NCBI GenBank assembly: GCA_028716385.1
Contig: JAQUPX010000003.1
Span: forward strand, 62,001 to 126,000
Direction: 5' to 3'
Length of the DNA: 64,000 bases
Source of the DNA: a bacterium
Lineage (GTDB): Bacteria > Hydrothermota > UBA3073 > JACQXS01 > JAQTXJ01
Shown here in pieces: positions 5,308-22,425 of this stretch. The translations under genes were made by a program, and so were the position numbers. Below the pieces are notes generated by a model, which worked only from the letters and a program-made list of their open reading frames with translations, ran no database searches and was not told the origin of the DNA. Every line of letters starts with the position of its first letter. The stretch's first letter is position 1.

Positions 5308-5317
5308 ATAGGTTACG

Positions 5318-5345
5318 ATTTTATTGTAAAACAAAGCTATGTCAA
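5318..5345 (-). promoter_or_regulatory. polA promoter, TTGACA-16-TAAAAT
   Basis: On the minus strand TTGACA (5345-5340) and TAAAAT (5323-5318) are 16 bases apart. The -10 box ends 10 bases before the ATG at 5307. There is no ribosome site between, which suggests a leaderless or nearly leaderless message. Confidence 0.55.
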
Positions 5346-5373
5346 GAGTAAAACATTTTTTAACATTTCTGAC

Positions 5374-5401
5374 TTGACATTTATGCGAATTGTATTAATT
5401 T
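5374..5401 (+). promoter_or_regulatory. tdh promoter, TTGACA-16-TAATTT
   Basis: TTGACA (5374-5379) and a weak -10 TAATTT (5396-5401) lie 16 bases apart, with only 7 bases to the ATG at 5409. No Shine-Dalgarno is present. It is back-to-back with the polA promoter. Confidence 0.45.
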
Positions 5402-5408
5402 CCACCTT

Positions 5409-6443
5409 ATGAAAATGAAAGCAATCCGTAAAATAAATCCCCAATTAGGGGCAACACTTGTAGATATTGAAGCACCTAAACCCTCTTCGTACGAGGTATT
5501 AGTTAAAGTAAAAGCTACTTCCATATGCGGGACAGACGTTCATATTTATAGCTGGAACGAATGGGCCCAAAACAGAATAAAACATATCCCCCAAACTATG
5601 GGACATGAATTTGCAGGCGAAGTAGTAGAAGTTGGTTCTTGCGTAAAAAATATAAAAGTAGGAGATTATGTATCCGCAGAAACCCATATTCCTTGCGGAG
5701 GATGTATCCAATGTATGACGGGACAGATGCACATATGTCATAACGTCAAAATACTTGGAGTAGATTGTGACGGTTGTTTTGCGGAATACATTGCAGTCCC
5801 GGAAAGTGTAATATGGAAAAACGACAAATCCATACCACCGGAATTCGCGTCAGTGCAGGAACCGATTGGCAATGCCGTATACTGCACACTCGTTGAGCCT
5901 GTTACCGCAAAAACCGTTGTTATTCTTGGCGCAGGACCAACGGGCTTATTTTCAACGGGAGTAGCAAAAGTAGCCGGAGCAGCACAAGTCATCGTCGTAG
6001 AAGTTGAACAATTCAGGCTTGACATTGCAAAAAAAATGGGAGCGGATATTTGCATTAATCCAAAGAATGAAGACCCTTTAAAAAGAATATTAGACGAAAC
6101 AAAAGGTATAGGAGCAGACGTCGTCCTTGATATGGCAGGTTCACCAAAAACAATTGAGCTCGCAATCAAAGCAGTCCGTAGAGGCGGGAGATTCTCTGCA
6201 TTCGGAATTACACCGGGAGCCATTAATATAGATTATAACAGTATCATATTCAAAGGAGTTACCATTTACGGAATAAGCGGAAGATTAATGTTTGACACAT
6301 GGTTCAAAGTAAGAAACCTGCTTGCATACAAAAAACTTGATATTTCACCTGTAATTACACATAAACTCAAACTTGAAGAATTTGACAAGGGTTTTTCCGA
6401 AATGATAAACAAAACTGCTGCGAAAGTAATTCTATTCCCGTAA
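5409..6443 (+). CDS. tdh: L-threonine 3-dehydrogenase (zinc MDR family)
   Basis: A 344-residue medium-chain dehydrogenase expected to oxidise L-threonine to 2-amino-3-ketobutyrate with NAD+. Visible motifs are the catalytic zinc region 'SICGTDVHIYSWNEWA', 'GHEFAGEVVEVG' and the structural-zinc cysteines in 'PCGGCIQCMTGQMHIC'. The Rossmann motif 'ILGAGPTGL' follows. The 'HIYSWNEWA' segment and length match bacterial Tdh (341 residues in E. coli) better than sorbitol or alcohol dehydrogenases. An adjacent 2-amino-3-ketobutyrate CoA ligase (kbl) is absent, so the glycine-forming partner must be elsewhere. A second ATG two codons in (5415) is possible, and no ribosome site supports either one. 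Confidence 0.86.
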   Translation: MKMKAIRKINPQLGATLVDIEAPKPSSYEVLVKVKATSICGTDVHIYSWNEWAQNRIKHIPQTMGHEFAGEVVEVGSCVKNIKVGDYVSAETHIPCGGCIQCMTGQMHICHNVKILGVDCDGCFAEYIAVPESVIWKNDKSIPPEFASVQEPIGNAVYCTLVEPVTAKTVVILGAGPTGLFSTGVAKVAGAAQVIVVEVEQFRLDIAKKMGADICINPKNEDPLKRILDETKGIGADVVLDMAGSPKTIELAIKAVRRGGRFSAFGITPGAINIDYNSIIFKGVTIYGISGRLMFDTWFKVRNLLAYKKLDISPVITHKLKLEEFDKGFSEMINKTAAKVILFP

Positions 6444-6469
6444 CTGCTAAAGCTCTTTAAGATAAAACC

Positions 6470-7153
6470 TCAATGCAATTGTATCCATAATCTAATCGCA
6501 TCTTTTATGCCTTTAGATACCGTAATTAAGTTAACACATTTAGTTTTACCACTTAGTCTTGGATAGTGCGTAGTAGTTATTTCAGAGAATCTAAATCCTT
6601 TTTTCTTTGCTTTAATAAGTATTTCTGCATCAATAAACGCTGATGTGGACTGAATACAAATTTTCTGAATTACTTCTTTTTTAAAAAGTTTTGTCCAATT
6701 CATATCTTTTATTTTTAGTCCGAAAAGCAGTCTTACAAAAAAATTCCATGTTTTTGATAAAATTGCACGGTATAAATAATCCTTTCTCTTACTACGACAA
6801 CCTATAACAATATCTGCTTTATCAATTGCTCTAAGAAATAGCTTTATTTCGGAGGTATCTTGCTGCCCATCTGCAGGCATAAAAAAAATAAAATCGCCTT
6901 TCGCCCCATTTAAACAGCTTTTTATGGCATTCCCTACTCCTAGCCTTTGTTTATGATGTATCACCCTTATATGAGTATTTTGGGCTGAAAGTCTACGGGC
7001 AATAACTCCTGTTTTGTCTGTACTGCCATCGTCTACAATTAATACTTCATATTTATTCGTCAGAGTAGAAAGAATTTTTATTGCTGATTCTGTAACGGTT
7101 TCAATATTTTCTTCTTCATTAAATGCCGGCATAACTATTGAAAGACTTTTCAT
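6470..7153 (-). CDS. GT2 glycosyltransferase, polyprenyl-phosphate sugar synthase type
   Basis: A 227-residue GT-A fold enzyme of the DPM1-like group. It has 'SIVMPAFNEEENIE', the nucleotide-binding 'LIVDDGSTDKT', and the metal-binding 'PADGQQD' in place of a DxD. The acceptor helices 'NWTKLFKKEVI' follow. No membrane anchor is obvious. Such enzymes usually move a sugar from a nucleotide donor to polyprenyl phosphate at the inner face of the membrane. It is the last gene of the 21124-6470 operon, 7 bases after the DUF2079 gene. A role in supplying lipid-linked donors to the five GT-C transferases upstream is inferred from that position. The sugar cannot be read from the sequence. Confidence 0.8.
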   Translation of the reverse strand: MKSLSIVMPAFNEEENIETVTESAIKILSTLTNKYEVLIVDDGSTDKTGVIARRLSAQNTHIRVIHHKQRLGVGNAIKSCLNGAKGDFIFFMPADGQQDTSEIKLFLRAIDKADIVIGCRSKRKDYLYRAILSKTWNFFVRLLFGLKIKDMNWTKLFKKEVIQKICIQSTSAFIDAEILIKAKKKGFRFSEITTTHYPRLSGKTKCVNLITVSKGIKDAIRLWIQLH

Positions 7154-7160
7154 AATTATA

Positions 7161-8801
7161 TCAAAAATTATCCCCCGGTAATTTAATTAATTCATTTGAA
7201 CCCGTTTTCTTTTTAAATAATATAAGTTTTTCTCCGGATGTTGCAATAATTTCATATTTCTTACTCTCCATTATTTGAGGAAGAAATTTACTAAAATCAA
7301 TTGGTATCTTTTCCTTTTTGCCATAATCTAACAAAATATAGTCTACTCCCCAGTTTATTTGTTTATTACTATCCTGGTCAATAAGAAATAAATGGATATT
7401 ATCTCTCTGCTTTAAATATTCACTTAAATGAGGAATAAGACACCAATTTGGAGTAGACACTGAACTATTTTTAGGAATCTTCTCCATAATTTTTTTGATT
7501 TCTACTCTGTAAGTGGTATTCGTTTTATACCCAAGAAAAAAATACTTAAATTCGCGTAATGGACCAAAAATTATACAACTTAAGAACATGTTAAGCATCA
7601 CGTAAGTCATCAGTTTTGATTTATTTATTCCTTTGTCTAATATTATTTTGCTTCCATAAGCTGCAGAAATCACTAAAAAAGGTATTAAAAGAAAATTTGT
7701 TTGACGCCATATAAAAGCCAGATTATCACCCAGAAGAAGCATTATAAGATACGGGACGATTATTAGAAAAGTTTTCCATGATATTAAAGAGAGAAACCCA
7801 ACCGGCACCAACAATTCTAAAAGCCATTCAATCTTTGAAATACTAAATATCTTTATTCCCTTAGCAATAATATTCGGGAAAACATATTTCAGAGAATTAA
7901 TATGATTACTTGCCCCCTCTATGGAATTATGAAAAAGACGAAAATGAGGATAAACATGAAAAAGATTGAAAGCCGGCACTAAAAATCCTACTGTTAGGAT
8001 AAACCAGCTTATGCCCAAAATAAACTGTAAAATTCCTATAGTCTTGTTTTTCTCCGCCAACCAGTTATAAAGACCTATACTTGCTATAACTATTGATACG
8101 TCTTCCCTGCACATTAACGCAAGTATCGTAAATATAAAGGCAAGTAGCTTATTCCTTTTTTGCGAATAATAAAAAGTAGCTAAAAGAAAAAGAGGTGCCA
8201 AAGCAAGGGAATGGAAATCAAAAAGATTGGGATATTGCAACGAGGGATATAGTAAGTAAACAAGAGGGAAAATCATAGCTAATAAGGAATTCCCTATATT
8301 CTCTTTTATTATAAAATATACGAAAATTGCTCCCAATCCAATTGCCACGGATTGAATTAGTAGAAGAATTACCGGGGAAGAATGTATCCAATAAAAAGGA
8401 ACCAGTAAAAATAGTATTGGGCTAAAATGGTCGCCAAACGGATATTTGCCAACTATAGAAACTAATGTATATACAAGTCGGAATTTACTGTATCCCCATA
8501 TCTCCTGATCATAAACACCTAAATCAAAACCATAGGCATAAAATGGCGAATATAATGAACGATATATAAAAATAGACAAGCTTCCCATAATTACAATGTA
8601 AATTCCAACTATTAGATAAATCCATTTTAATGAATCTTTAATGTCTTTTTGAAAAACTTTTGGCGCCCAAAACAATGATATTATTCCACTAACTGCTAAA
8701 ATTACAGAATATCTGATAGGGAAATTTAAAACCTTCAACAAAGCCCCCCCTATCAATACTGTAAGAAAAAATAAAAAAACAAATAATGTCTTCGTTTTCA
8801 T
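7161..8801 (-). CDS. DUF2079 multi-pass membrane protein
   Basis: About 546 residues, with a dozen or so hydrophobic segments. The DUF2079 signature is clear: 'YGFDLGVYDQEIW', 'KYPFGDHFSPILFLLVPFYW' and 'LYPSLQYPNLFDFHSLALAPL'. DUF2079 proteins are of unknown function, but the fold is related to GT-C transferases, and the acidic FDLGVYDQ loop is in the position of their catalytic Asp. The track start (8861) lies inside the preceding gene. I prefer the ATG at 8801, one base after that gene's stop (TAATATG), which suggests translational coupling. The C-terminal soluble part (about 130 residues) faces the same side as in the GT-C neighbours. It probably acts in the same glycan pathway. Confidence 0.78.
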   Translation of the reverse strand: MKTKTLFVFLFFLTVLIGGALLKVLNFPIRYSVILAVSGIISLFWAPKVFQKDIKDSLKWIYLIVGIYIVIMGSLSIFIYRSLYSPFYAYGFDLGVYDQEIWGYSKFRLVYTLVSIVGKYPFGDHFSPILFLLVPFYWIHSSPVILLLIQSVAIGLGAIFVYFIIKENIGNSLLAMIFPLVYLLYPSLQYPNLFDFHSLALAPLFLLATFYYSQKRNKLLAFIFTILALMCREDVSIVIASIGLYNWLAEKNKTIGILQFILGISWFILTVGFLVPAFNLFHVYPHFRLFHNSIEGASNHINSLKYVFPNIIAKGIKIFSISKIEWLLELLVPVGFLSLISWKTFLIIVPYLIMLLLGDNLAFIWRQTNFLLIPFLVISAAYGSKIILDKGINKSKLMTYVMLNMFLSCIIFGPLREFKYFFLGYKTNTTYRVEIKKIMEKIPKNSSVSTPNWCLIPHLSEYLKQRDNIHLFLIDQDSNKQINWGVDYILLDYGKKEKIPIDFSKFLPQIMESKKYEIIATSGEKLILFKKKTGSNELIKLPGDNF

Positions 8802-8802
8802 A

Positions 8803-10539
8803 TTACAATTCTTTTCTCTTGTATATTCCAATAATCGGGCCACCTGTAACATTTTTATCAAATATTGATACCTTTGAAAGAGCCTCGTAATCTACACGCC
8901 AACTATAATAATCCCACCTGGATAAAGGATACGGTTTGAATTCCTTAATAAGTTCATACCGGTCGTTTAAGGAATCAATGAAATTTTTTGGCAAGTCATT
9001 ACCAACATACTGATTTTTTGCCCAACTGGAAGTAATGAGATATTCTATTCCCTGCTCAACATACTCATCCACATTTTTATAACATTCTTTTCTGCGATAG
9101 TCTTCTTTTTCTAAAACAAGGACGTTCTTTAATGCATACGTCGGTTCACGCTGCCCCTTAATCATAGCTTCTAAATATTTATTGTATTTCCCATTTTTTT
9201 GCTCGTTTACAAGTTGCTCTTCTAATTGTTTTTTACTCTTATGTAATTGAAGCCCTAAATGCCCCGTCTGTTCAAACCCTTCATCACTATTTTCACAAAC
9301 TATTTTACTCCCGGGTAATATGTTTGACTCAACAAATTTAAGTCCGATATTCCTTGTATCCTGACGGGTTATTAGATAATTATACTTTATTGTATTTAAA
9401 AGATTTGGGAACATAAGTCCTATAAGCGTTATCCCTATAATTATATTTCTGGCAAGAAAAGATATTTTCAGTTTTGATACTATTTCATATATAAATTTAG
9501 ATGCAAACAATATAAAAAATGGAATTACGGGTATAAGATACCGTTCACAACTCAAAGGCTGGTTCAAAACAATGCCAAAATATAAAGCTAAAAATATAAT
9601 AAAAGAAATATCTTCTTTTCTATATAATGAATATAGAATGCCTATTAATCCCATTATTTCGAGAGGCAAACCTATTCCCTTTCTAAAATATTCTACTAAA
9701 TAAAATAACCATACCGGTAATGTCCCGGTATTTACATTTGGCCATTGTTCAATGGTAAATATTACTCCATAGTTCTCTATAATGAAATTACGGGAATCAA
9801 ATATCAAAGAGGGGGTACATATAAAAAATATAAGCATAGAAATACCTATTAATATAATACAATTTTTAAGTCTATCTTTGAGAGTAACCGTTTTTTCAGT
9901 TAAAATTATAAATATAGGAGAAACTATGCCTATCAATAGAGAAAACCTTGCTGCTATAGCAATCCCCATAAATATACCTGCAAATAAATATTTTTTTATT
10001 TTTAGCCCTTGATTACTGCAAAAATAAATGGACAGCAAAAGGAATAATGTTCCAAATGTATCCCCCTTCATAATTTTCGATTGGTGGATTGCTAAAAAAC
10101 ATGTACTAAATAATATGCCGGAAGCTACCGCTATAGTATTGTTATAAAGCTTCCTGCTCAGCAAGTACAATGCAACTACACACAAAACACCGATTACAAC
10201 AAAAAATATTCTGCCAATTAAGTATATAGTTGTTGGGTCCTGCATATATAAAACAAGAAAACCAAAAGGAGTTTTTATTATTCCTGAAATTTTTAAAACT
10301 ACATAATAAATACCATATAATATACCTACTAAGGAAGGGATTAGATTACCATAGAAATATCCAAAATGTATCATCCCTTTGTGAGATAATGTGTACAAAG
10401 CATTATAGGCAATTACTCGTTCATCAAAATGGAATAAACTCGGCAGCCCAAAATTTACTCCCCATATTCTTAAAACAAAAGCAATTAAAATAATAAATGA
10501 AAACAGTAGTATATTTTGTTTCCCCTTGTAAGAAATCAT
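8803..10539 (-). CDS. GT-C (PMT/ArnT-like) membrane glycosyltransferase, array copy 5
   Basis: 578 residues: about 11 transmembrane segments, then a soluble C-terminal domain of about 160 residues. The first periplasmic loop carries the acidic pair in 'FGLPSLFHFDERVI' (residues 28-41), matching the catalytic Asp-Glu region of protein mannosyltransferases and ArnT. The next conserved loop is 'HQSKIMKGDTFGTLF'. The C-terminus ends with the array signature 'VTGGPIIGIYKRK'. GT-C enzymes use polyprenyl-phosphate sugars and act outside the cytoplasmic membrane; donor and acceptor here are unknown. Its ATG directly follows the stop of the copy upstream (TAAATG). It is one of five paralogs in a row and among the more diverged. 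Confidence 0.8.
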   Translation of the reverse strand: MISYKGKQNILLFSFIILIAFVLRIWGVNFGLPSLFHFDERVIAYNALYTLSHKGMIHFGYFYGNLIPSLVGILYGIYYVVLKISGIIKTPFGFLVLYMQDPTTIYLIGRIFFVVIGVLCVVALYLLSRKLYNNTIAVASGILFSTCFLAIHQSKIMKGDTFGTLFLLLSIYFCSNQGLKIKKYLFAGIFMGIAIAARFSLLIGIVSPIFIILTEKTVTLKDRLKNCIILIGISMLIFFICTPSLIFDSRNFIIENYGVIFTIEQWPNVNTGTLPVWLFYLVEYFRKGIGLPLEIMGLIGILYSLYRKEDISFIIFLALYFGIVLNQPLSCERYLIPVIPFFILFASKFIYEIVSKLKISFLARNIIIGITLIGLMFPNLLNTIKYNYLITRQDTRNIGLKFVESNILPGSKIVCENSDEGFEQTGHLGLQLHKSKKQLEEQLVNEQKNGKYNKYLEAMIKGQREPTYALKNVLVLEKEDYRRKECYKNVDEYVEQGIEYLITSSWAKNQYVGNDLPKNFIDSLNDRYELIKEFKPYPLSRWDYYSWRVDYEALSKVSIFDKNVTGGPIIGIYKRKEL

Positions 10540-12327
10540 TTATCTATCTCCCGTCAAGACAAGGCTCTCTCTCTTTTTATATATTTTTATAATAGGACCG
10601 CCAATAACCTTTCTATCAAATATTGATACTTCAGACAAAGCATTGTAATCTATTTTTGAGAAACAGTAATAATCCCACCCAAAGACCGGATTAGGTTTAA
10701 ATTCTTTTATAAGCTCATATTCCTTTTCTAATGACTTTGAAAAACCTTCTGACATTATACGACCAGCAGAGTACCATCTTGACCAACTACTTGTAATAAA
10801 GTAATCTACATTATGTTCTAAATAAATTTTAACAGTAGTATCATACCTTTCATTTTCGTAAGGAGGTTTTTCTAAAACACAAATATTCTCTAATATATAG
10901 CCCGGTTCCTTTTGCCCTTTGATTCCAGCAAGAACAAGAGCACCTCCAAAACCTTCTTCTTTTATCTTATCAAATTGTTCCTGTAATTGTTTTTTACTTT
11001 TATGTATAGGGACCCCCAGAATAGAAGTCTGTTCAAAATATTCTAATCCTTCAGATACTATATTACTCTCCGGGGAAATTGTTTTTTCAATAAATTCTTT
11101 AGCTAAATTCCTTGTATCCGGGCAGCTTATCAAATAATTATACTTTATTGTATTTAATAAACCCGGAATTATAACTATTAGACTCATAACAACAAGAAAA
11201 ATTGGTTTTAATTTCGATTTCTTTTTACAAATTATGACACTAATTTGATAAATAAACTTAGCCGCAAAGAAAACAATAAAAGGAATAATCGGAATAGCAT
11301 GCCACGAAGGAGTAGTGTGACTTAAAATAACACTCCAGAAAAGAATTACAAATACAATCAGACTAATATTCTCTCTTTTATATAACGAATATAATATTCC
11401 TAAAATTCCTATTATTTCTAATGGTACTCCGATTCCATTGCTTATAGGCTCCATCAAACAAATTATCCAATTAAAGTTAGGACTTACACTTTTTGATGTA
11501 CTCATAAGTTGTGTGCCAAGGCCAAATATATTATGAGTAAATATGGAAAACTTGAAAATTACAGAAGGAGTTAATATCAAAAACGCCGTTACACTACACA
11601 GAATGAAAACTAAAAAATTCTTAATCCTATTAGTAAATAACATTTTTCTATCCATAAGAAAAACAATTGCAGGGGTAATTAAATAAATAACCAGAGTGAA
11701 TCTTGCAGCTATTGCAAGCCCGGCAAATATACCGGCAAGAATATACTTTTTAAGTTTTACTTTTTTATTATCCGTATTATCCTCACCCTTTTGAGAAAAG
11801 CAAAAATAAACCGACAATAACATCATTAAAGTCCCTAGTGTGTCTCCTTTCATAAACTTTGCCTGTTGAGTAGGCAAGAAACTAAAAGTAAAGAAAAAAG
11901 CAGAGAGTAGACCGGTTGTTCTATTGTAAAGCCTCTTCCCTATTAAATATAGGACAACAACACAGGCGGTTGATGAAAGAACAAATAGCATTCTTCCGAT
12001 TAAATATACACTTGATGGGTCTCTCATATAAAACACCAAAAAATCAAAAGGAGTCTGAACTATTTTTATAAGTTTTAAAATTAAATAATATATACCATAA
12101 AATACGGCAAGCATATTAGGAATTAAATCACCATAAGGGTAAGCATGATGGATAATAGGGACTTGTCCTTTATGAGCTAATCTATAAAATGCATCCACCG
12201 GAAATATTCTTTCATCTAAATGAAATAATCCGGGCAATCCGAAATTAACACCCCATACTCGCAGAAAAAAAGCAATAATGCATATCAAAAACAATAAAAC
12301 ATAATGGATTTTAATATTTTTGCTCAT
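10540..12327 (-). CDS. GT-C (PMT/ArnT-like) membrane glycosyltransferase, array copy 4
   Basis: 595 residues with the same architecture as its neighbours: 'FGLPGLFHLDERIF' in the first loop, 'QQAKFMKGDTLGTLM' in the next, and 'VIGGPIIKIYKKR' at the end. The N-terminal 30 residues are almost identical to copy 3, and the DNA agrees over more than 100 bp, pointing to recent duplication or gene conversion. The hydrophilic loop after the fourth helix is longer ('SQKGEDNTDNKKVKLKK'). It overlaps the upstream copy by four bases (ATGA), so the pair is translationally coupled. Confidence 0.8.
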   Translation of the reverse strand: MSKNIKIHYVLLFLICIIAFFLRVWGVNFGLPGLFHLDERIFPVDAFYRLAHKGQVPIIHHAYPYGDLIPNMLAVFYGIYYLILKLIKIVQTPFDFLVFYMRDPSSVYLIGRMLFVLSSTACVVVLYLIGKRLYNRTTGLLSAFFFTFSFLPTQQAKFMKGDTLGTLMMLLSVYFCFSQKGEDNTDNKKVKLKKYILAGIFAGLAIAARFTLVIYLITPAIVFLMDRKMLFTNRIKNFLVFILCSVTAFLILTPSVIFKFSIFTHNIFGLGTQLMSTSKSVSPNFNWIICLMEPISNGIGVPLEIIGILGILYSLYKRENISLIVFVILFWSVILSHTTPSWHAIPIIPFIVFFAAKFIYQISVIICKKKSKLKPIFLVVMSLIVIIPGLLNTIKYNYLISCPDTRNLAKEFIEKTISPESNIVSEGLEYFEQTSILGVPIHKSKKQLQEQFDKIKEEGFGGALVLAGIKGQKEPGYILENICVLEKPPYENERYDTTVKIYLEHNVDYFITSSWSRWYSAGRIMSEGFSKSLEKEYELIKEFKPNPVFGWDYYCFSKIDYNALSEVSIFDRKVIGGPIIKIYKKRESLVLTGDR

Positions 12328-14072
12328 CGTTTTTTATATATTTTTATAACTGGTCCCCCTACAATTTTTTTATCAAATATATGCACTTTTCCAAGCGACT
12401 CATAGTCTATCTGTTTATTATAATAATCCCATTTCAATGTGGGATTAGGCTTAAATTCTTTGACCAACTCATATTCTTTTTCAAGGGAATTCAAAAAACG
12501 TTCAGGCATTACTGTCCCTAATCCTCTCATCCAATCACTTGTTATTAAATAATCTACCCCGTGCTCTATGTAAACTTCCACAGTAGTATCATATTTAGAC
12601 ACTTTATAAGGAGGAATTTCTATATTAGGAACGTTTTCTAATATATAAGTAGGTTCTTTGTACCCGTCAATCATAGCAGAAAGTAATTTTCCAGGTATGT
12701 TTTGTTTATTTATTGATATTAATGTATCTTGTAATTGTTTTTTACTTTTACGCAAAGGAGGACCCAAGACAGAACTTTGGTCTATTAACTCCCCGCCATC
12801 ACTTACTATTTTAGTTCCTGAAGATATGGTACATTCTATAAAATTTTGTGCTAAATTCCGTGTATCCGGTTGAGATATTAAATAATTATATTTAAGGGTT
12901 TTTATCAAAGAGGGATACATAAGGATTATACAACAAAGTCCCATAATTCCCTGCCTAATAGGCAGACTAACTTTAATTCTTTTTATGCCTTCATATAAAA
13001 ATTTAGACGCAAATATTATAAAAAAAGGAATAGCGGGTATAATATAACGTTCCCAACCCGGGGAATGAATTAAAACAAGCATAAAGAATAAAAACAAAAA
13101 AATAATTATACTAAGTTCTTGTATTTTACGATATGTGAATGGACGAAATAACATGCTGATTAATGAACACATAATTCCAAGTATCGCAGTTATTTCCAGA
13201 GTACCACCTATTCCTTTATATAAATGTTCAGTAAAATAAAATAACCATATAGGTTGTGCGCCAAGATTAATTGCTGGCAAAGAAGTTGAAGTCGGCAATA
13301 TTTTATACATTTCGCTTGTAAAATCAGAAAATTGAAAAATTATTGAAGGAGTGGAAATAAAAAATATAAAAACAGTAGTAATACTGAAAATACTTATTCT
13401 TTTAAGCCTAAAACTATCTCTTGAAATAAAATATATTATTATGGGAACAATCGGAGCCAGATATAGAGTAAATCTTGATGCTACCGCAAATCCCATAAAT
13501 ACACCTGCCAATATAGTTTTCTTTATATCAAAATGATAGATTTCATCTTTAATACAGAAATAGAAAGAAAACAAAAGGAATAAAGTGCCGAGACTGTCTC
13601 CTTTCATAAACTTTGACTGATGAATAGGAAGAAAACTGAATGCAAGAAAAAAAGCAGATAATAATCCAATAGTTCTATTGTACAGTTTGCTTCCAAATAA
13701 GTATAAGGCCCAGACAGATAATGTGCTTGCGCAAACAAATAACATTCTTCCAATCAAATATACGTTTGTAGGGTCTTTCATATAAAGAACAAGAAAATCA
13801 AAAGAAGTCCTTACTATCCCTATTACTTTTAGAACTACAAAATAAATGCTATAAAGTATACTTAATAAATACGGTATTAAATTTCCATAGAAAAAAGCTT
13901 TTGGAATATGTCCTTTATGAGTTAATGCATAAAAAGCATTATACGGTAAAAAACGCTCATCAATATAAAATAATCCGGGTAATCCGAAATTAACACCCCA
14001 TACTCGCAGAACAAAAGCAATAATACATATCAAAAACAATAAAACATAATGGATTTTAATATTTTTGCTCAT
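12324..14072 (-). CDS. GT-C (PMT/ArnT-like) membrane glycosyltransferase, array copy 3
   Basis: 582 residues. The first loop is 'FGLPGLFYIDERFL', the second 'HQSKFMKGDSLGTLF', and the end 'IVGGPVIKIYKKR'. A segment reading 'YLIGRMLFVCASTLSVW' is identical to copy 1 but not to copies 2 or 4, so this gene is a mosaic. The C-terminal soluble domain keeps the array pattern: 'DTRNLAQNFIE', a 'SKKQLQ' segment, 'YIEHGVDYLITSDW' and 'SLEKEYELVKEFKP'. Four-base overlaps exist with copy 4 at its end and with copy 2 at its start. Confidence 0.8.
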   Translation of the reverse strand: MSKNIKIHYVLLFLICIIAFVLRVWGVNFGLPGLFYIDERFLPYNAFYALTHKGHIPKAFFYGNLIPYLLSILYSIYFVVLKVIGIVRTSFDFLVLYMKDPTNVYLIGRMLFVCASTLSVWALYLFGSKLYNRTIGLLSAFFLAFSFLPIHQSKFMKGDSLGTLFLLFSFYFCIKDEIYHFDIKKTILAGVFMGFAVASRFTLYLAPIVPIIIYFISRDSFRLKRISIFSITTVFIFFISTPSIIFQFSDFTSEMYKILPTSTSLPAINLGAQPIWLFYFTEHLYKGIGGTLEITAILGIMCSLISMLFRPFTYRKIQELSIIIFLFLFFMLVLIHSPGWERYIIPAIPFFIIFASKFLYEGIKRIKVSLPIRQGIMGLCCIILMYPSLIKTLKYNYLISQPDTRNLAQNFIECTISSGTKIVSDGGELIDQSSVLGPPLRKSKKQLQDTLISINKQNIPGKLLSAMIDGYKEPTYILENVPNIEIPPYKVSKYDTTVEVYIEHGVDYLITSDWMRGLGTVMPERFLNSLEKEYELVKEFKPNPTLKWDYYNKQIDYESLGKVHIFDKKIVGGPVIKIYKKR

Positions 14073-15856
14073 CGTTTTTTATATATTTTTATAGTTGGCC
14101 CACCTACAACCTTTTTATCAAATATGGACACTTTTAGCAATGCATCGTAATCTATCCTGAAACAAGAATGGTCCCATTCAAAAACCGGGTAAGGGGTAAA
14201 TTCTTTTATAAGTATATATTCTTTATTAAGCGAATTCAAAAACTCTTCCGGTGGCAATCTTACTCCTCTCCAGCTTGATGTAATTAAATATTCTATCCCG
14301 GAAGTTACATATTTATCAACAGATTTGTTCGCCTTAGTTTCAAAATTAGGCCTTTCTAAAAAAGGTACATTTTCTAATACATAAGTAGTGCCTGACTGCC
14401 CCTCCAGTATAGCCTGCAGAAATTTTCCTCCCCGTCCTTCGGATTGCACTTTTTCAAGTTGCTTCAAAATTTGTGTTTTACTCTTGTGAATCGGGGGTCC
14501 CAGAACGGATGTTTGTTCATACCCTTCTATTCCTTCGTTTACAATCCTTGTACCGGAAGGAATATTTTTTTCTACAAAAGCTTTTGCAATATTTCTTGTA
14601 TCCTCACAATTTGAAATTAAATAATCATACTTTATAGCATTTAAAATATTTGGTACTGCACACCACAACAAAACAGAACACATAAGTACCACTTTCATAT
14701 ACGTTGATACTTTTAATTTTGACACAAGTTGATATATAAATTTAGCAGAAAATAATATTATAAAAGGAACTACCGGGATAACATACCGTTCAAAGTTCTG
14801 TGAATGGCTTAATACCACGGCAAAAAATAAAACTAAAAAGATAACAATCCCTAATTCCATTTTTTCACTCAAAACAATATTTTTTTTGTTTATATATTTT
14901 TTCGCATAATTACATACTGAGCTTAATATTCCTATTATCCCGGTTATTAGGAGTGGCAATCCCATACCTTTTCCGAGATGTTCTGTAATATAAAATAACC
15001 ATACAGGTTGATTGCCGGGTTTTACCCAGGGGTCTTTTTGATTATGAACCTGCCACATAAGGTCACTTGTAAAATTAGAGAATTCAAATATTAAAGATGG
15101 AGTAGTAATCAAAAATACGACTACAGTAGTAATAATAAATATAAGACAATGCTTGAGAGGCATTGATATGTTATCTCTCGTAAGTTTTGGGGGGATAAAA
15201 AAGATAATTATAAAAATAAGCGGAACAACATACAAAGTAAATCTTGATGCTATTGCTAATCCCATGAAAATACCGGCGATTATATACTTTCTTACAGCAA
15301 CCTTTTCTATAGCTACTATGAAAAAATAAAATGCAAATAAAAGTAAAAAGGTTCCTAATGTATCTCCTTTTAAAAATTTTGATTGGTGAATAGGAAGAAA
15401 AGCAAATGCAAGAAAAAAGGCAGCTATTAATCCTATCCATTTATTATATAGTTTTTTGCCTAATAAATATATTGCAAAAATAGATACAGAGCCAATAATA
15501 ACAAAAATAAATCTGGCAATTAAATATATACTTGATGGGTCTTTTATATAAAAAACAAGAAAATCAAAAGGAGTTTTAAGAACTCCGGCTATTTTTAAAA
15601 CTATATAATATACTCCATATATACTTCCAAATATATAAGGAATGAAATTACCATACCCGTAAAGTAAAACATGCCCTTTATGAGTCATTGCATAAAATAT
15701 ATCATAAATAAACCAGCGTTCATCTGCATGGAATAACTCGGGTAATCCAAAATTTATACCCCATAGTCTCAAAACAAAACCACCTATAAATATAAAAAAC
15801 AAAGGTAAAATAGCCTGTCTGTATATCAAATTTTTACCCCTATTAAATTTACCCAT
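14069..15856 (-). CDS. GT-C (PMT/ArnT-like) membrane glycosyltransferase, array copy 2
   Basis: 595 residues. The catalytic loop 'FGLPELFHADERWF' and 'HQSKFLKGDTLGTFL' are present, and the end is 'VVGGPTIKIYKKR'. The soluble domain contains 'EDTRNIAKAFVEKNIPSGTR' and 'SGIEYLITSSWRG'. It overlaps copy 1 by eight bases and copy 3 by four. Distance to the next coding region is nil on both sides, which leaves no room for independent promoters, so expression must come from the long operon. Substrates are unknown. Confidence 0.8.
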   Translation of the reverse strand: MGKFNRGKNLIYRQAILPLFFIFIGGFVLRLWGINFGLPELFHADERWFIYDIFYAMTHKGHVLLYGYGNFIPYIFGSIYGVYYIVLKIAGVLKTPFDFLVFYIKDPSSIYLIARFIFVIIGSVSIFAIYLLGKKLYNKWIGLIAAFFLAFAFLPIHQSKFLKGDTLGTFLLLFAFYFFIVAIEKVAVRKYIIAGIFMGLAIASRFTLYVVPLIFIIIFFIPPKLTRDNISMPLKHCLIFIITTVVVFLITTPSLIFEFSNFTSDLMWQVHNQKDPWVKPGNQPVWLFYITEHLGKGMGLPLLITGIIGILSSVCNYAKKYINKKNIVLSEKMELGIVIFLVLFFAVVLSHSQNFERYVIPVVPFIILFSAKFIYQLVSKLKVSTYMKVVLMCSVLLWCAVPNILNAIKYDYLISNCEDTRNIAKAFVEKNIPSGTRIVNEGIEGYEQTSVLGPPIHKSKTQILKQLEKVQSEGRGGKFLQAILEGQSGTTYVLENVPFLERPNFETKANKSVDKYVTSGIEYLITSSWRGVRLPPEEFLNSLNKEYILIKEFTPYPVFEWDHSCFRIDYDALLKVSIFDKKVVGGPTIKIYKKR

Positions 15857-17606
15857 TTCTTTTATATATTCTAATAAAAGGCCCGCCTATAATATTTTTA
15901 TCAAATAGAGATACTTTTGAAAGACTCTTATAATCCACTGTGTAATAATACTCATATTGAAAAATTGGATAAGGAGAAAATTCTTTTACAAGAGTATATT
16001 CTTTTTTAAGTGAATTTAAAAAACTTTCCGACAATCCGGGAAGTTCAGTTGCCCATACAGATACAATTAAATACTCTACCCCTGTCTTCAAATAAATATC
16101 CACCATATTAGTATCCGGTTTTTCTAAAAACCAAATATTTTTTAATTTATACGTCGGCTCCGGTTGTCCTTCAATCATAGCAAGTAAATACTTGCCCGAT
16201 ATATTTTGTGCCCTTGCGACTTCTAATAGTTCCTTTAATTGTTCTTTGTCCTTATGAAGTTGTACTCCGTATGCTGAAATTTGTTCATAAAGTTCGCCTC
16301 CTAAATTTACAATATTTGTCCCGGCAGGAATATTTTTTTCTATAAACGCTTTGGCAGTCTTTCTCGTATCATCACACGATATTAAATAATTATACTTTAT
16401 GGCGTTATCAATGTTCGGAAATATACACCAAGCGCTTACAAAACAAACAAGTGCCTTTTTAAAAAAATTAGATATTGTTAACTTTAAGACAATTTCATAT
16501 ATAAACTTAGATGCAAATAATATAAAAAATGGGATTACAGAAACAGCATATCTTCCGGTATTAGCTGAATTATTTAATATAAAAGCAAAAAACAAAATTA
16601 AAAAGGCAATAATTCCTATAATTAAACGTTCATTGTAATTAATACTATTTTTTAAGTATAATTTGATATATCTATAAAGTGAATACAAAATCCCCATTAT
16701 AGCAAGTATCTCAAGCTGTAAACCCATTCCTTTGTGTATATGCTCTGTCAAATAAAATAACCATATAGGTTGATTGCCGGAATTAACCCATGGAGTAATA
16801 TGAAATAATTGATTTTTCATTTCTGAACTTAAACTATGTGTAAAATCAGAAAACTCGAAGATTATTGAAGGGGTACTCATCAAAAACACAACAACCGTAA
16901 TAACAATAAATATATAGCTTTTTTTAATCCTTATTAATAAATTATGCCTGTCCGGTAAAATAAGATATAAGCATATTATAGAAAGAAAAGCTATCGACAA
17001 ATAAAATCTTGTTGCTATTGCAAATCCCATAAAAATACCGGAAAAGATATATTTCTTTGATATTGGATACTGCTCAATATAAGTAAGAAAATATAACGAT
17101 ATTAAAAGAAATAAAGAAGCAAGACTATCATTTTTTATAAATTTTGCATGGTGTATAGAAAGAAAGTTAAATGCAAGAAAAGTTGCAGATATCAAACCAA
17201 TCTTTCTATTATAAAGTCTACTCCCTAATAAGTATAAAACCCAAACAGATAATGTGCTTGCGCAAACAAATAACATTCTTCCAATTAAATATACATTTGT
17301 GGGGTTTTTCATAAAAAGAACAAGAAAATCATACGGAGTTTGAACTATATTACCTATTTTTAAGATTATATAATATATTCCATAAATACCACTTAATAAA
17401 TAAAAGATTAAGTTTCCGCAAAAATATGTAACAATATGCCCTTTGTGAGTTAATGAATAAAACACGTTATAAACATAGGTAGATTCATCGCCATAAAACA
17501 AACTTGGGAAACCACAATTTACACTCCATACTCTCAAAATAAAAGCGCTAACAAGAATCAATATTAAGAAAAAAAACTCCCAATGTTGTTTTCTATAATT
17601 TATCAT
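15849..17606 (-). CDS. GT-C (PMT/ArnT-like) membrane glycosyltransferase, array copy 1
   Basis: 585 residues and the first-transcribed copy of the array. The first loop is 'CGFPSLFYGDESTY': the acidic pair Asp-Glu is kept, but the Arg that follows it in the other four copies (DER) is Ser (DES). The next loop 'HHAKFIKNDSLASLF' also departs from 'KGDxLGT'. These changes at conserved positions suggest a different donor or acceptor, or reduced activity. The C-terminus 'IIGGPFIRIYKRN' and soluble domain ('KTGVEYLIVSVW') are otherwise typical. It lies 37 bases after the acyltransferase gene. Confidence 0.78.
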   Translation of the reverse strand: MINYRKQHWEFFFLILILVSAFILRVWSVNCGFPSLFYGDESTYVYNVFYSLTHKGHIVTYFCGNLIFYLLSGIYGIYYIILKIGNIVQTPYDFLVLFMKNPTNVYLIGRMLFVCASTLSVWVLYLLGSRLYNRKIGLISATFLAFNFLSIHHAKFIKNDSLASLFLLISLYFLTYIEQYPISKKYIFSGIFMGFAIATRFYLSIAFLSIICLYLILPDRHNLLIRIKKSYIFIVITVVVFLMSTPSIIFEFSDFTHSLSSEMKNQLFHITPWVNSGNQPIWLFYLTEHIHKGMGLQLEILAIMGILYSLYRYIKLYLKNSINYNERLIIGIIAFLILFFAFILNNSANTGRYAVSVIPFFILFASKFIYEIVLKLTISNFFKKALVCFVSAWCIFPNIDNAIKYNYLISCDDTRKTAKAFIEKNIPAGTNIVNLGGELYEQISAYGVQLHKDKEQLKELLEVARAQNISGKYLLAMIEGQPEPTYKLKNIWFLEKPDTNMVDIYLKTGVEYLIVSVWATELPGLSESFLNSLKKEYTLVKEFSPYPIFQYEYYYTVDYKSLSKVSLFDKNIIGGPFIRIYKRNG

Positions 17607-17643: not shown

Positions 17644-18186
17644 TTAATTGGAAAGATGCCGGATTGTTTTTGCCGGTACCCCGGCAACCATAGTATAAGA
17701 TTCAACTTTTTTATTTACCAGACTACAAGCCCCTATGAAAGAACACTCTCCAATTTCTACACCGGAAAGAATCGTTGAATTAATACCAATAAATGAACCC
17801 GGTTTTATTACAACAGGATTAGAAAAACTTGGAAAAAATTTCTGTAAAGGATGATCTTTATATCCTACATTAGTATGAGTCAGTATTGTTACTCTCGCAG
17901 AAATAGTTACTTTGTTTCCTATATCCACTTTATCCGCCAAATCAATCATAGCCTCATCCCCAATAAAACATTCATCCCCAATAGTTAGTCCTCTAAATCC
18001 CTTTCTATAACAATTAATAAATTTAACCGAGTTAATAACACAATGTTTGCCAATCTTAACGCCTAATAACCTTAAGAAAAACACCCTGCAAGGAGAAAAA
18101 ATCATTAACTTAAAGATGCATAATGCAATAGTAGTAAAAATATACTTTATTCCCTTTCCAATGCCTATTTCTTCTAAAGCTCTCAT
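17644..18186 (-). CDS. Left-handed beta-helix O-acyltransferase (WcaF/Maa-like)
   Basis: 180 residues. From about residue 48 the hexapeptide repeat is clear: 'IGKHCVINSVKF', 'IGDECFIGDEAMIDLADKVDIGNKV', 'IKPGSFIGINSTILSGVEIGE'. The likely catalytic histidine is in 'TILTHTNVG', and the C-terminal cap is 'VAGVPAKTIRHLSN'. The first 35 residues are hydrophobic and may dock on the membrane. The family moves acetyl or similar groups from CoA onto sugars, so it probably decorates the operon's glycan. The start at 18186 follows a strong CTAAGGAGG ribosome site, 11 bases upstream. Confidence 0.82.
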   Translation of the reverse strand: MRALEEIGIGKGIKYIFTTIALCIFKLMIFSPCRVFFLRLLGVKIGKHCVINSVKFINCYRKGFRGLTIGDECFIGDEAMIDLADKVDIGNKVTISARVTILTHTNVGYKDHPLQKFFPSFSNPVVIKPGSFIGINSTILSGVEIGECSFIGACSLVNKKVESYTMVAGVPAKTIRHLSN

Positions 18187-18221: not shown

Positions 18222-18917
18222 TTATTTAAATTGAAGTAACCTTATGAAATAATTAAATGAATCAGGAAAAGTTTTAACCGTTGAGCGCCTTTCATATCTT
18301 CTGATGAATATACAAAGAATTTCTTTTACTTTATAGTTATGTAAATACGCTCTTGCCATAAATTCCGTATCCCAAAACCACCGCATATCTTCTATTTCGT
18401 CAATCATAGATAATACTTTATTAGTATCAAAAAACTTATACCCGGCTTCAGTATCCTCGTATGGAAGTCCTAAAATAATTTCTACTAATAAATGATATCC
18501 TTTCGTTAATATCCACCTATCTATTGATTTGATTTGCAATTTGTAAGTTCTATGGGCTACAGCTATATCATACCCACTTTTTATTGCATCCACAAACTCG
18601 GGAATATATTCCGCCCCTACTTCTAAGTCAATATCTATATAGCCTGTTACTTTCCCCTTAGCTATTTTAATTCCATCCTTAACTGAACCGCCTCGTCCTA
18701 TATTTTCCTTATGAAATATTTTTTGTAAGTTTTTATCCTTATACATTAACATTATTTCTTCTATTTTTTCTCTTGTCCTATCTTTACTACAATCATCAAC
18801 AAATATAATTTCATAACTCAAATTTGTTTTATCCAAAACTTCCATAACCTTAGATATATTTTTTATAAGTATCGGCTCTTCATTATAACACGCAATTATT
18901 AAGCTTAAATCGTACAT
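18222..18917 (-). CDS. GT2 glycosyltransferase, polyprenyl-phosphate type
   Basis: 231 residues of the DPM1/DPG-synthase group: 'SLIIACYNEEPILIKNI', 'IIFVDDCSKDRT', 'GYIDIDLEVGAEYIPEFVDAI' (metal site DID/DLE) and 'EDTEAGYKFF'. No membrane segments are obvious, so it is a soluble or peripheral enzyme. Like the gene at 6470 it is expected to charge a polyprenyl phosphate with a sugar, but the two are only distantly similar, so two different lipid-linked donors are plausible. It lies five bases after the GT4 gene in the same operon. Confidence 0.78.
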   Translation of the reverse strand: MYDLSLIIACYNEEPILIKNISKVMEVLDKTNLSYEIIFVDDCSKDRTREKIEEIMLMYKDKNLQKIFHKENIGRGGSVKDGIKIAKGKVTGYIDIDLEVGAEYIPEFVDAIKSGYDIAVAHRTYKLQIKSIDRWILTKGYHLLVEIILGLPYEDTEAGYKFFDTNKVLSMIDEIEDMRWFWDTEFMARAYLHNYKVKEILCIFIRRYERRSTVKTFPDSFNYFIRLLQFK

Positions 18918-18922
18918 TGTAT

Positions 18923-20089
18923 TTAATTAAAACTGTTATATAAATTTTTTGTATCGCCAATAACCTTATCCCAGTTAAAAATTTCTTCTACTTTTCTTTT
19001 CCCGGTCATTCCCATCTTAATCCTTAATGCTTTATCTTTTAATAATTTCAATACGGCTCCTGCCAAAACCTTCGAATCTTGTTTTACAAGTAACCCATCA
19101 TTTTCATCGGATATTATTTCCCTTAATGCCGGGATATCGCCACCAATTACCGGTTTGCTAAACTTCCATGCTTCAGCATATACAATTCCAAAAGCTTCTT
19201 CATAAGAAGGCATACAAAATATGTCGCAAGCCGCATAAGCACTCGATTTTTCAAAACCATCACACCACGGCAACTCAATAACTTTTCTGTCTTTTACAGG
19301 ATATGCAGATTCCCCGTTACCAATAAATACAAAGAAGGTTTCCGGTTCATCTTGCCATATTAGTTTCATAGAATCAATCACTGTATTATACCCCTTCCCC
19401 TTTGTTTTCCTGCCAATAAACAAGACCATATTTCCTTTAATATTATATTTCTCCCTGAACCACTCTGCATCACATTCATTCGTGATAATCGGCGCGCTGT
19501 AAATAACCTTTATTTTTCCCTCATTTACACCTTTTGACATCATAAATTGTTTCTCATACTCGCTTTTAACTATCACCCTGTCTGCAGACTTATACAGCTC
19601 AATATCAATGTCCCCATCACCCCAGTTCCCGGGATGACAATGTGGCAAAACTAGAAACGGTTTGTTAAGCATTTTGCAAGTTTTTAACACGCTAAAACTT
19701 AAAAGTTCAAGTCCTGTTCCATGATATTCAACAATATCTGCCAATTTTATAAATGGCGTTATTTTTTTTACCCACACTTTGTTATACATCCATTGTGCAA
19801 GCTTTTGAGTATTTAAGTTAAAATGTAATTTATATACAGGCAAAAGCCATATTTTTTCAAAAAAACTTATTCCTATAACATTAACTTTAATTTTATCGTT
19901 GAAATAAGTTTTGTTTTTTGAACTCGCCAAAAACCTATTGCTTGAAGCAAAATAATCAACAGGGCTATCAAATCTCGTTACTACTTCCACATCATACTCT
20001 TTGGACAATTCTTCGGAAATCTTATACAAATACCTTTCTCTACCCCCAATTTTATCTGTATATACCGGGATAACAAATAAAATTTGCAT
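18923..20089 (-). CDS. GT4 family glycosyltransferase
   Basis: 388 residues with a two-domain GT-B fold. The N-terminal glycine loop is atypical ('PVYTDKIGGRERYLYKIS'). The donor domain begins 'VLFIGRKTKGKGYNTVIDSM' and carries the retaining-enzyme E-x7-E motif in 'YEEAFGIVYAEAWKFSKPV'. It is cytoplasmic and uses an NDP-sugar, probably building the core of the glycan on its carrier. It lies three bases after the epimerase gene and five before the GT2 gene, inside the operon. The acceptor cannot be predicted. Confidence 0.82.
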   Translation of the reverse strand: MQILFVIPVYTDKIGGRERYLYKISEELSKEYDVEVVTRFDSPVDYFASSNRFLASSKNKTYFNDKIKVNVIGISFFEKIWLLPVYKLHFNLNTQKLAQWMYNKVWVKKITPFIKLADIVEYHGTGLELLSFSVLKTCKMLNKPFLVLPHCHPGNWGDGDIDIELYKSADRVIVKSEYEKQFMMSKGVNEGKIKVIYSAPIITNECDAEWFREKYNIKGNMVLFIGRKTKGKGYNTVIDSMKLIWQDEPETFFVFIGNGESAYPVKDRKVIELPWCDGFEKSSAYAACDIFCMPSYEEAFGIVYAEAWKFSKPVIGGDIPALREIISDENDGLLVKQDSKVLAGAVLKLLKDKALRIKMGMTGKRKVEEIFNWDKVIGDTKNLYNSFN

Positions 20090-20092
20090 TTC

Positions 20093-21124
20093 TTAAGGTA
20101 AAACACTTTCTATTTCCTTTTTATGTTCTATTAGCCATTGGTAAAGTCGTTGAACTCCTCTAGTAACATTAACATTCGGCTTCCACTTCATATCTTGTTT
20201 TGCTTTAGTAGTATCAGAGACATAAAACAACTGGTCGCCCGGTCTGGATTCACTAAATTTGCATTTTATCTTCCTGCCTAACTTGTCTTCTATCATATCT
20301 ATTAACTCTAAAAGGGATATTGTATTCTCCCTACCGCCACCGATATTATAGACTTTCCCCTTTATTTTATCCTTGTTTTTCACTGCAGACATACATAAAT
20401 TAACATAATCCTCAATAAAAAGGATATCTCTTATTTGCTTGCCATTGCCATAAATTGTTAATTGTCTATTTCTTATCGCTGTTATGATAAACCATGCAAC
20501 CCAACCCTGGTCTTCCACCCCAAATTGCCTCTCCCCATATATACAGGACATTCTGAATACTATCGTTGGCAAGTCATACATTCTTGAATAATCCCGGACG
20601 TATTGGTCTGCACATCCCTTGGAACATCCATAAGGTGAATAGAAATCCAATCCCATAGATTCATTTATACCATCTTTCAAGTTTTTAGCTTCATATCGTT
20701 TTGATTTTTCTACCAACTGAGTATTTTCTAATTTACCATATACTTTGTTCGTAGATGAAAAAATAACCAATGGTTTATTTTCCTCTTTTCTACAAGCTTC
20801 AAGCAAATTAAATGTTCCCATTGCATTTATCTCAAAATCTTCTGCAGGATTAATTACGGATGTTGTTACTGCTGTTTGTGCCGCAAAGTGGAATACGACA
20901 TCTATATGGGAATACTTTTGGAATACATTATTTACTGCTTTTTTATCTCTGGTATCACCCTTAATAAAGGTAAATTTTCCATTTTCTTTTAACCATTTCA
21001 AATTTAGTTCCGAGCCACGCCTTGACAAGTTATCAAATACAATTACCTCATTGCCATTGCTGATTAACCTATTGGCAACATTACTTCCAATAAATCCGGC
21101 TCCGCCTGTAACCAAAACTCGCAT
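20093..21124 (-). CDS. NAD-dependent epimerase, CDP-paratose 2-epimerase (tyvelose) type
   Basis: 343 residues, a short-chain dehydrogenase of the extended type. The NAD motif is 'GGAGFIGSN' (residues 7-15) and the catalytic triad lies in 'FSSTNKVYG' and 'YSPYGCSKG' (YxxxK). The stretch 'RMSCIYGERQFGVEDQGWVAWF' and the 'SPYGCSKGCADQY' context are characteristic of CDP-paratose 2-epimerase (RfbE), not GalE or RmlB. Other CDP-dideoxyhexose genes are not in the window, so the exact substrate may differ. It is the first gene of the glycan operon. Its ATG has no Shine-Dalgarno and lies 35 bases from a TTGACA box. Confidence 0.75.
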   Translation of the reverse strand: MRVLVTGGAGFIGSNVANRLISNGNEVIVFDNLSRRGSELNLKWLKENGKFTFIKGDTRDKKAVNNVFQKYSHIDVVFHFAAQTAVTTSVINPAEDFEINAMGTFNLLEACRKEENKPLVIFSSTNKVYGKLENTQLVEKSKRYEAKNLKDGINESMGLDFYSPYGCSKGCADQYVRDYSRMYDLPTIVFRMSCIYGERQFGVEDQGWVAWFIITAIRNRQLTIYGNGKQIRDILFIEDYVNLCMSAVKNKDKIKGKVYNIGGGRENTISLLELIDMIEDKLGRKIKCKFSESRPGDQLFYVSDTTKAKQDMKWKPNVNVTRGVQRLYQWLIEHKKEIESVLP

Positions 21125-21333: not shown

Positions 21334-22425
21334 ATGGGAAAAATAAGAGTGGGGATAATAGGCGTTGGTAATTGCGCATCAAGTTTAGTCCAGGGTGTTC
21401 ATTTTTATAAAAATAAAAAAACAGGTCGTATTCCAGGCATTATGCACCTGAAATTTGGACCTTACTCAATAGAAGATATAGAATTTTCCTGCGCAATAGA
21501 TATAGATAGAAATAAAGTAGGCAAAGACTTAGGGGAAGCAATTTATGCGACTCCAAATAATACTTTCAGATTCTGTGACGTTCCGAAACTTGGAGTTCCC
21601 GTTTTAAGAGGAATGGCGCATGACGGTATTGGAAGGTATCTTGCACCTATAGTAAAAAAAGCGCCCGGCGCAACAGCAGACATTATAAGAGCATTCAAAG
21701 AAACTAAAACGGATATAGTAATAAACTACCTGCCCGTAGGTTCGGAAGAAGCTACAAAGTGGTATGTAGAACAGGTTTTACAATCAGGAAAAATAGGTTT
21801 CATAAACTGTATCCCGGTATTCATTGCAAGTTCAAAATACTGGCAGGAAAGATTCAGAAAAGCCGGTTGTCCCATAGTAGGAGACGATATAAAATCTCAA
21901 GTCGGCTCAACTATAGTTCATAGAGTTCTCACTAATTTATTCAACGACCGAGCCGTAGAACTATTAAGAACATACCAATTGAATGTAGGCGGGAATACGG
22001 ATTTCTTAAATATGCTTGAAAGAGACAGGTTAGAATCAAAAAAGATTAGTAAAACACAGGCAGTTACTTCACAAATACCTTATAAAATAGACGAAGAAAA
22101 TGTCCACGTAGGGCCATCAGATTATGTGCCCTGGCTTAAAGACAGAAAATTTGCCTTTATAAGATTAGAGGGCAGAACCTTTGGCGATGTACCATTAAAT
22201 ATAGAATTAAAAATGGAAGTGTGGGATTCGCCTAATTCGGCAGGTGTGGTAATAGATGCATTAAGAGCATGTAAAATTGCTTTAGATGCAGGGCTTGCAG
22301 GTGAAATCGTAGAACCGTCAAGTTACTTTATGAAATCACCGCCGGTTCAATTCCCTGATGATATGGCAAAACAAAAAGTGGAAGAATTCATAAAAAAGAA
22401 CAGCAAAAAAGAAAAAAGTAAGTGA
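21334..22425 (+). CDS. ino1: myo-Inositol-1(3)-phosphate synthase
   Basis: 363 residues, the short prokaryotic form of the enzyme that converts glucose 6-phosphate to myo-inositol 3-phosphate using bound NAD+. The NAD motif '[15 protein letters not shown]' is at residues 7-21. The family signatures '[16 protein letters not shown]', '[14 protein letters not shown]', '[16 protein letters not shown]' and '[11 protein letters not shown]' follow in order, and length matches mycobacterial Ino1 (367). A good GGGAGG site precedes the ATG. The product could feed inositol phospholipids or a soluble inositol solute; no downstream enzyme is present here to decide. It is the first gene of ino1-tmk-ctpA-pyrB. 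Confidence 0.92.

Follow-up and report, generated by a model that had tools for sequence, protein, structure and literature searches.

We analysed a 64,000-nucleotide stretch of genomic DNA (positions 62,001 to 126,000 of contig JAQUPX010000003.1, forward strand, GenBank assembly GCA_028716385.1; hereafter the window) from a bacterium of the phylum Hydrothermota (UBA3073; JACQXS01; JAQTXJ01), focusing on a minus-strand glycan operon with an array of five predicted GT-C membrane glycosyltransferases. The array comprises five successive open reading frames (ORFs), all of them intact: W1 (15849..17606, 585 amino acids (aa), 45 bits to the PMT_2 profile), W2 (14069..15856, 595 aa, 55.8 bits), W3 (12324..14072, 582 aa), W4 (10540..12327, 595 aa) and W5 (8803..10539, 578 aa, 44.4 bits). 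In transcript order the junctions from W1 to W5 are -8, -4, -4 and 0 bases. All five proteins exceed the PMT_2 (PF13231) gathering cut-off of 26.1 bits, with scores of 38.0-55.8 bits, as do all three copies encoded by a congener (see below). These coordinates and scores bear out the first-pass annotation, which had described five tandem PMT-like ORFs of 578-595 aa with overlaps of 8, 4 and 4 bases and one zero-base gap. No Pfam domain other than PMT_2 passed its cut-off in any of the five copies, and matches to PF02366 or the MIR domain, the hallmark of GT39 PMT enzymes, are absent from all five at E 0.01.

The order of genes along the transcript is epimerase, GT4, GT2a, acyltransferase, the five GT-C copies, a DUF2079 protein and GT2b, all on the minus strand. 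The first gene (20093..21124) encodes a sugar-nucleotide epimerase whose closest solved relative is CDP-tyvelose 2-epimerase (phmmer, 9rl0 E 1.3e-102, 1orr E 1.4e-96). Next are genes for a GT4 glycosyltransferase (18923..20089; PF00534, 99 bits), a short GT2 enzyme (GT2a, 18222..18917) and a WcaF-like hexapeptide acyltransferase (17644..18186; PF00132, with 83 bits to NF007797, under the cut-off of 192 for that model). Behind the array are genes for a DUF2079 membrane protein (7161..8801; PF09852, 190.7 bits), more likely to start at ATG 8801, one base past W5, than at TTG 8861, and for a second short GT2 enzyme (GT2b, 6470..7153). The array's same-strand neighbours are separated by gaps of 1 to 37 bases, and this operon-like packing extends along the whole locus, as expected for the single operon, with these same flanking genes, that had been proposed. 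Both short GT2 enzymes are probably polyprenyl-phosphate sugar synthases, again as proposed, given that their nearest solved relatives are dolichyl-phosphate mannose synthase (DPMS), ArnC and sll0501 (for GT2a, 5mlz, dolichol-P-mannose synthase, E 9.7e-15, and 5ekp, sll0501, E 1.7e-14; for GT2b, ArnC 9hwj E 4.6e-16 and 5mlz E 1.7e-13). A promoter scan gave 85 hits where chance alone predicts 84.8, and there are zero Rfam matches within the window.

Tandem repeats are prone to misassembly, so an assembly artefact must be considered. Here, however, the copies share 47-53% aa identity and 59-64% nucleotide (nt) identity, and the longest run common to any two is 47 nt. At 59-64% identity in DNA, duplication of one gene by the assembler is impossible, and a second, separately assembled genome carries a similar array with the same flanks. 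On these three grounds we rejected an artefact, to which we give next to no credence. The array sits inside a 399,909-base contig. The divergence indicates that the five copies are true, old paralogs.

Array-family matches at E 1e-25 occur in eight of 147 genomes of the phylum: the genome of the window (five copies), a congener (three copies) and six genomes with one distant match each. Thus, the array was found in only two of the 147. Among 60 relatives, matches at 1e-20 were found in two. The congener contig (L009, JAQTXJ010000064.1) encodes the same epimerase, GT4, GT2a and acyltransferase (92%, 74%, 82% and 78% identity, respectively), then three GT-C copies (S1-S3), then Tdh and polA as in the window. 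The search for this gene order in relatives and a phylogeny of the copies, both suggested with the first-pass annotation, thus recovered a three-copy version of the operon and an array clade with 100/100 support. W3/S1 and W4/S2/S3 also have 100/100 support; S1 is orthologous to W3 (72% identity) and S2 to W4 (76%), and W1 and W2 have no congener orthologue. Given identities of 72-76% between orthologues and about 50% between paralogs, the five lineages are probably older than the species split, with loss of copies in the congener. The DUF2079 protein was found in one of 30 genomes searched, that of the window, and not in the congener. GT2b also has no close congener orthologue (best match in that genome, G001, 37%).

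The tree and motif comparisons include six distant relatives (from G100, G102, G125, G126 and G132, plus a Tantalella protein of L010); the G101 protein was excluded because its match spans only profile positions 99-418. The single relatives in the six genomes have gene contexts unlike that of the array in the six stretches read and are therefore uninformative on function. In two genomes (L025 2035-6573 and L026 3676-8220), the single distant relative lies directly behind a protein some 1,510 aa long.

The first-pass annotation knew of no characterised locus with such a layout. The layout does have parallels: the three-copy version in the congener, a second array in the phylum and, among characterised loci, the three-gene GT-C cluster embCAB of mycobacteria. 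Most genomes of the phylum encode PMT_2 proteins (121 of 147 at E 1e-6). In the eight genomes picked as GT-C rich, for which full PMT_2 lists were made, a run of four or more PMT_2 genes occurs in one, G139 (L033, G139:C20:6000-22000), which is from another family of the phylum. There, four consecutive same-strand paralogs, 61-76% identical, occupy positions 3089-11667. They resemble W1-W5 in arrangement but belong to another, unrelated GT-C subfamily and are longer (638-714 aa); unlike in the window operon, inspection by eye of the ORFs in the 16 kb read showed no GT2, GT4 or epimerase. The five-copy array is an extreme of a recurring habit in the phylum. The embCAB genes are likewise neighbouring GT-C paralogs that build one polysaccharide, and Emb chains match the fold of the modelled array proteins (Z about 11-13), but the three Emb copies are about 1,030-1,090 aa long with a carbohydrate-binding module. 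In the literature searched, which excludes most subscription journals, we found no account of a tandem GT-C array like this one. The interest of the array lies in its glycan operon, in its change from species to species and in the active site of copy 4.

AlphaFold models of W2 and W4 were built from nine-row alignments (pTM 0.65 and 0.69, respectively). With VIA-align, the W2 model matches AglB (3waj, Z 21.2, root-mean-square deviation (rmsd) 6.3, 377 residues aligned), Pmt (6p25_B, Z 19.6, rmsd 4.1, 340 aligned) and ArnT (5f15, Z 19.4, rmsd 6.5, 385 aligned), and the W4 model matches 3waj (Z 22.2, rmsd 6.3, 420 aligned) and 5f15 (Z 20.9, rmsd 6.3, 435 aligned). The matches are mostly GT-C enzymes, the same set for each. 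The models thus predict the seven-transmembrane GT-C core fold in copies 2 and 4, with Z of 19-22 to AglB, oligosaccharyltransferase (OST), PMT and ArnT, in line with the fold claimed at first pass; the remaining three copies are 47-53% identical. The likeness to GT-CA enzymes (ArnT, PMT, AglB/STT3, ALG9/ALG12, PimE and AftA/AftB) comprises the fold over almost the whole chain, an Asp after the first transmembrane helix (TM1) and a second Asp. The array proteins differ from these enzymes in that they match no solved chain by sequence, in having a C-terminal soluble domain of their own and, in the copy 4 lineage, in the lack of the arginine of an Arg-Tyr (RY) motif.

The acidic residues expected at the active site are kept in all five copies. 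Asp45 and Glu46, after TM1, and Asp165 (W2 numbering) are invariant in all eight array genes, and Asp165 is also present in all six distant relatives and in Escherichia coli ArnT. According to the available part of PMC12041299, all GT-CA enzymes carry, at the JM1 tip, an Asp that is essential; placed by sequence, it would correspond to Asp45 of copy 2. Copy 1 does read DES where DER is expected, as noted at first pass, but the change adjoins the catalytic Asp-Glu and lies outside it. W1 thus retains its acidic residues, and as both Asp and Glu are kept we rejected catalytic loss through DES. The meaningful change at an active site is in copy 4.

The RY motif lies at W2 positions 357-358. Its Arg is kept in W1, W2, W3, W5, S1 and all six distant relatives, where the next residue is Tyr in four and His in two. 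Only in W4, S2 and S3 is the Arg replaced, by Trp, and the pair in this lineage is Trp-His or Trp-Tyr for Arg-Tyr (WH in W4 itself). Ten fixed differences, including N70D, H157Q, K296N and R357W (W2 numbering), set the W4/S2/S3 clade apart from the remaining five array genes, and W3/S1 has eight fixed differences. At columns that do not vary among the other seven genes, W1 has 15 unique departures, W2 has 18 and W5 has 18. Excerpts of the study of ORF12, a GT-C enzyme of family GT136, report that R349A, in the R349-Y350 pair, abolished activity and that H174A did not (PMC11127046). In PimE, according to the portion of PMC12041525 available, Trp319 and His322 contribute to binding of the donor phosphate. 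By analogy, the Trp-His of W4 could do the same. Judged by its sequence, copy 4, with the RY Arg replaced, is the real oddity of the array.

The loss of this otherwise invariant residue could also be a sign of decay. If the genes had been duplicated for dosage, some copies might now be degenerating (copy 4 without Arg, copy 1 without DER), and S2 additionally lacks part of the TEH loop. However, the copies have diverged to about 50% identity with all five frames intact, and the Arg replacement is the same in both species. Ratios of nonsynonymous to synonymous substitution (dN/dS; Nei-Gojobori, window versus congener orthologues) are 0.23 for W4/S2 and 0.21 for W3/S1, so that purifying selection is similar in the two pairs. 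We consider decay improbable. For comparison, Tdh and polA have dN/dS of 0.03 and 0.06, respectively; within the operon, the ratio is 0.07 in the epimerase and 0.16-0.17 in GT4, GT2a and the acyltransferase. Thus, the array copies diverge faster than the housekeeping neighbours and only somewhat faster than the GT4 of the operon. The ratios indicate that the orthologous copies are under purifying selection and are kept by selection.

Several copies appear to have traded segments. The start of S3 resembles W5 more than W4 over codon columns 1-45 (informative sites 29:4, versus 124:435 elsewhere; permutation p 0.0074). Past column 45 it resembles W4/S2, and it departs from that lineage from about column 485 (p 0.0002 in all three comparisons). 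S2 and S3, 78% identical in DNA overall, share 268 identical nt (L009 6687-6954 and 8486-8753), which represents either recent gene conversion or an assembly error at 4.3x coverage. In the genome of the window, and hence independent of congener coverage, W3 and W4 are 91% identical over the first 50 codon columns versus 63% overall. W1 and W3 share a run of 41 identical nt. Of 17 triplet tests, on triplets picked after the pairwise identities had been seen, 10 gave p < 0.01, uncorrected. Pairwise clustering tests gave values < 0.01 in 11 of 28 pairs; as uneven constraint along the gene can have the same effect, the triplet tests and identical runs weigh more.

The array may therefore be viewed as a recombining reservoir, the main value of which would be to alter the surface glycan between strains by segment exchange and change in copy number. 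The mosaic S3, the several shared segments and the difference in number (five versus three) between the only two genomes with the array are as expected for such a reservoir, and between the species the array genes diverge more than Tdh or PolA at a dS that is not much higher. Yet the case rests on two genomes, dN/dS is well under 1, divergence is almost as great in the GT4 and the acyltransferase encoded by the operon, and passive gene conversion also gives segment sharing; we regard this explanation as unlikely. An extended version, which we put forward with the same reserve, is that of a diversification module in which N-terminal, membrane-core and C-terminal segments are swapped, copy number changes and conversion of the conserved donor-binding Arg-Tyr pair to Trp-His has given copy 4 a new specificity for donor or acceptor; closely related species would thereby build different surface glycans from one operon.

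Genes for a lipid-sugar synthase and a GT-C enzyme, in some cases with an epimerase, occur in one locus in three-component systems such as GtrABC and that for the Citrobacter youngae O1 pentofuranose (GT136), and the GT-C enzyme there has an RY pair (PMC11127046, from excerpts). In the established scheme of such systems, a donor synthase and a flippase work with a GT-C enzyme that acts outside the membrane, and loci with multiple candidate epimerases or GT-C enzymes are mentioned in Xanthomonas and Bacillus (parts available of the same source). The present locus differs in having five GT-C genes rather than one and no flippase gene within the operon, and the genome has no GtrA. The two GT2 enzymes, with their DPMS, ArnC and sll0501 relatives, would place a lipid-sugar synthase beside GT-C enzymes, as in Gtr-type systems. 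The genome encodes a glucose-1-phosphate cytidylyltransferase that scores over its cut-off, so the epimerase could plausibly be supplied with a CDP-sugar. Also encoded elsewhere in the genome, outside the operon, are six Polysacc_synt_3 matches.

Our preferred interpretation, which we hold to be reasonably probable, is that the five proteins form an extracytoplasmic GT-C array that uses polyprenyl-phosphate sugars to extend or decorate a single surface glycan and that has been expanding, contracting and recombining. In the cytoplasm, the two short GT2 enzymes would load sugars onto polyprenyl phosphate, and a flippase whose gene lies outside the operon would turn the lipid-sugars over. The GT-C copies would then transfer these sugars, on the outer side of the membrane, to one acceptor glycan, either growing or finished, with each copy perhaps forming a different linkage or recognizing a different acceptor. 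The array would have arisen by tandem duplication before the species split, with copies lost or gained since and segments traded by unequal crossing-over or gene conversion. The donor pocket in the copy 4 lineage would have been rebuilt (Trp-His or Trp-Tyr for Arg-Tyr), probably for another sugar or to give a non-catalytic partner.

Several findings weigh against this interpretation. There is no flippase gene in the operon, and GtrA (PF04138) was not found in the one genome searched, that of the window, which is 91.5% complete. A sequence-profile search found no relative of the array proteins in the PDB, and hhalign against E. coli ArnT (GT83) gave a probability of only 0.3, while the ArnT fold matches with Z 19-21. 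Mean pLDDT is middling in both models (64-65) and is below 50 in the JM1 stretch of copy 2. The equivalence of the array RY pair to R349-Y350 of ORF12 is tentative, being based on motif order. Finally, at the 4.3x coverage of the congener contig, misassembly could account for part of the S3 mosaic and of the 268-nt identity.

One sugar per paralog, the reading of the first-pass annotation, is possible. In its full form, with five different lipid-linked sugars added one each in a fixed order, we consider it doubtful, if worth keeping in view. The copies do differ at fixed positions (listed above), some by the presumed pocket, and the extra copies in the window accompany an extra GT2 and DUF2079, both not found in the congener. 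However, the operon has just two GT2 genes for five GT-C copies plus DUF2079, and 32 of the 34 GT2 matches in the genome lie elsewhere. Also, GT-C paralogs with a common donor may differ in the acceptor or linkage; several mycobacterial arabinosyltransferases do so (PMC11127046, in the part available).

Sequence is a poor guide to the substrate specificity of GT-C enzymes. The five natural paralogs of this operon, the orthologues and mosaic gene of a sister species and the lineage with a rebuilt motif together provide a panel for mapping donor versus acceptor segments. If segment exchange is ongoing, it would offer a route to surface-glycan diversity via recombination among extracytoplasmic transferases.

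An inositol-3-phosphate synthase-like gene (21334-22425; 518 bits, cut-off 638) is divergent from the operon. We considered a phosphatidylinositol-mannoside-like pathway from this gene and dropped it, as a different gene lies upstream of the congener epimerase. Two ORFs of the window (29347-31122, 591 aa, and 1980-2750, 256 aa) have no Pfam match at E 0.001. The window also encodes an FG-GAP repeat protein (26703-28217) whose match to the secretion-system C-terminal sorting domain is weak (23.6 bits against a cut-off of 27), and the tail of the ORF upstream of the congener epimerase resembles, by eye, that of this protein. Elsewhere in the genome of the window, we identified two more adjacent pairs of PMT_2 genes (G000:C12:1528-3603 and G000:C5:36490-38583).

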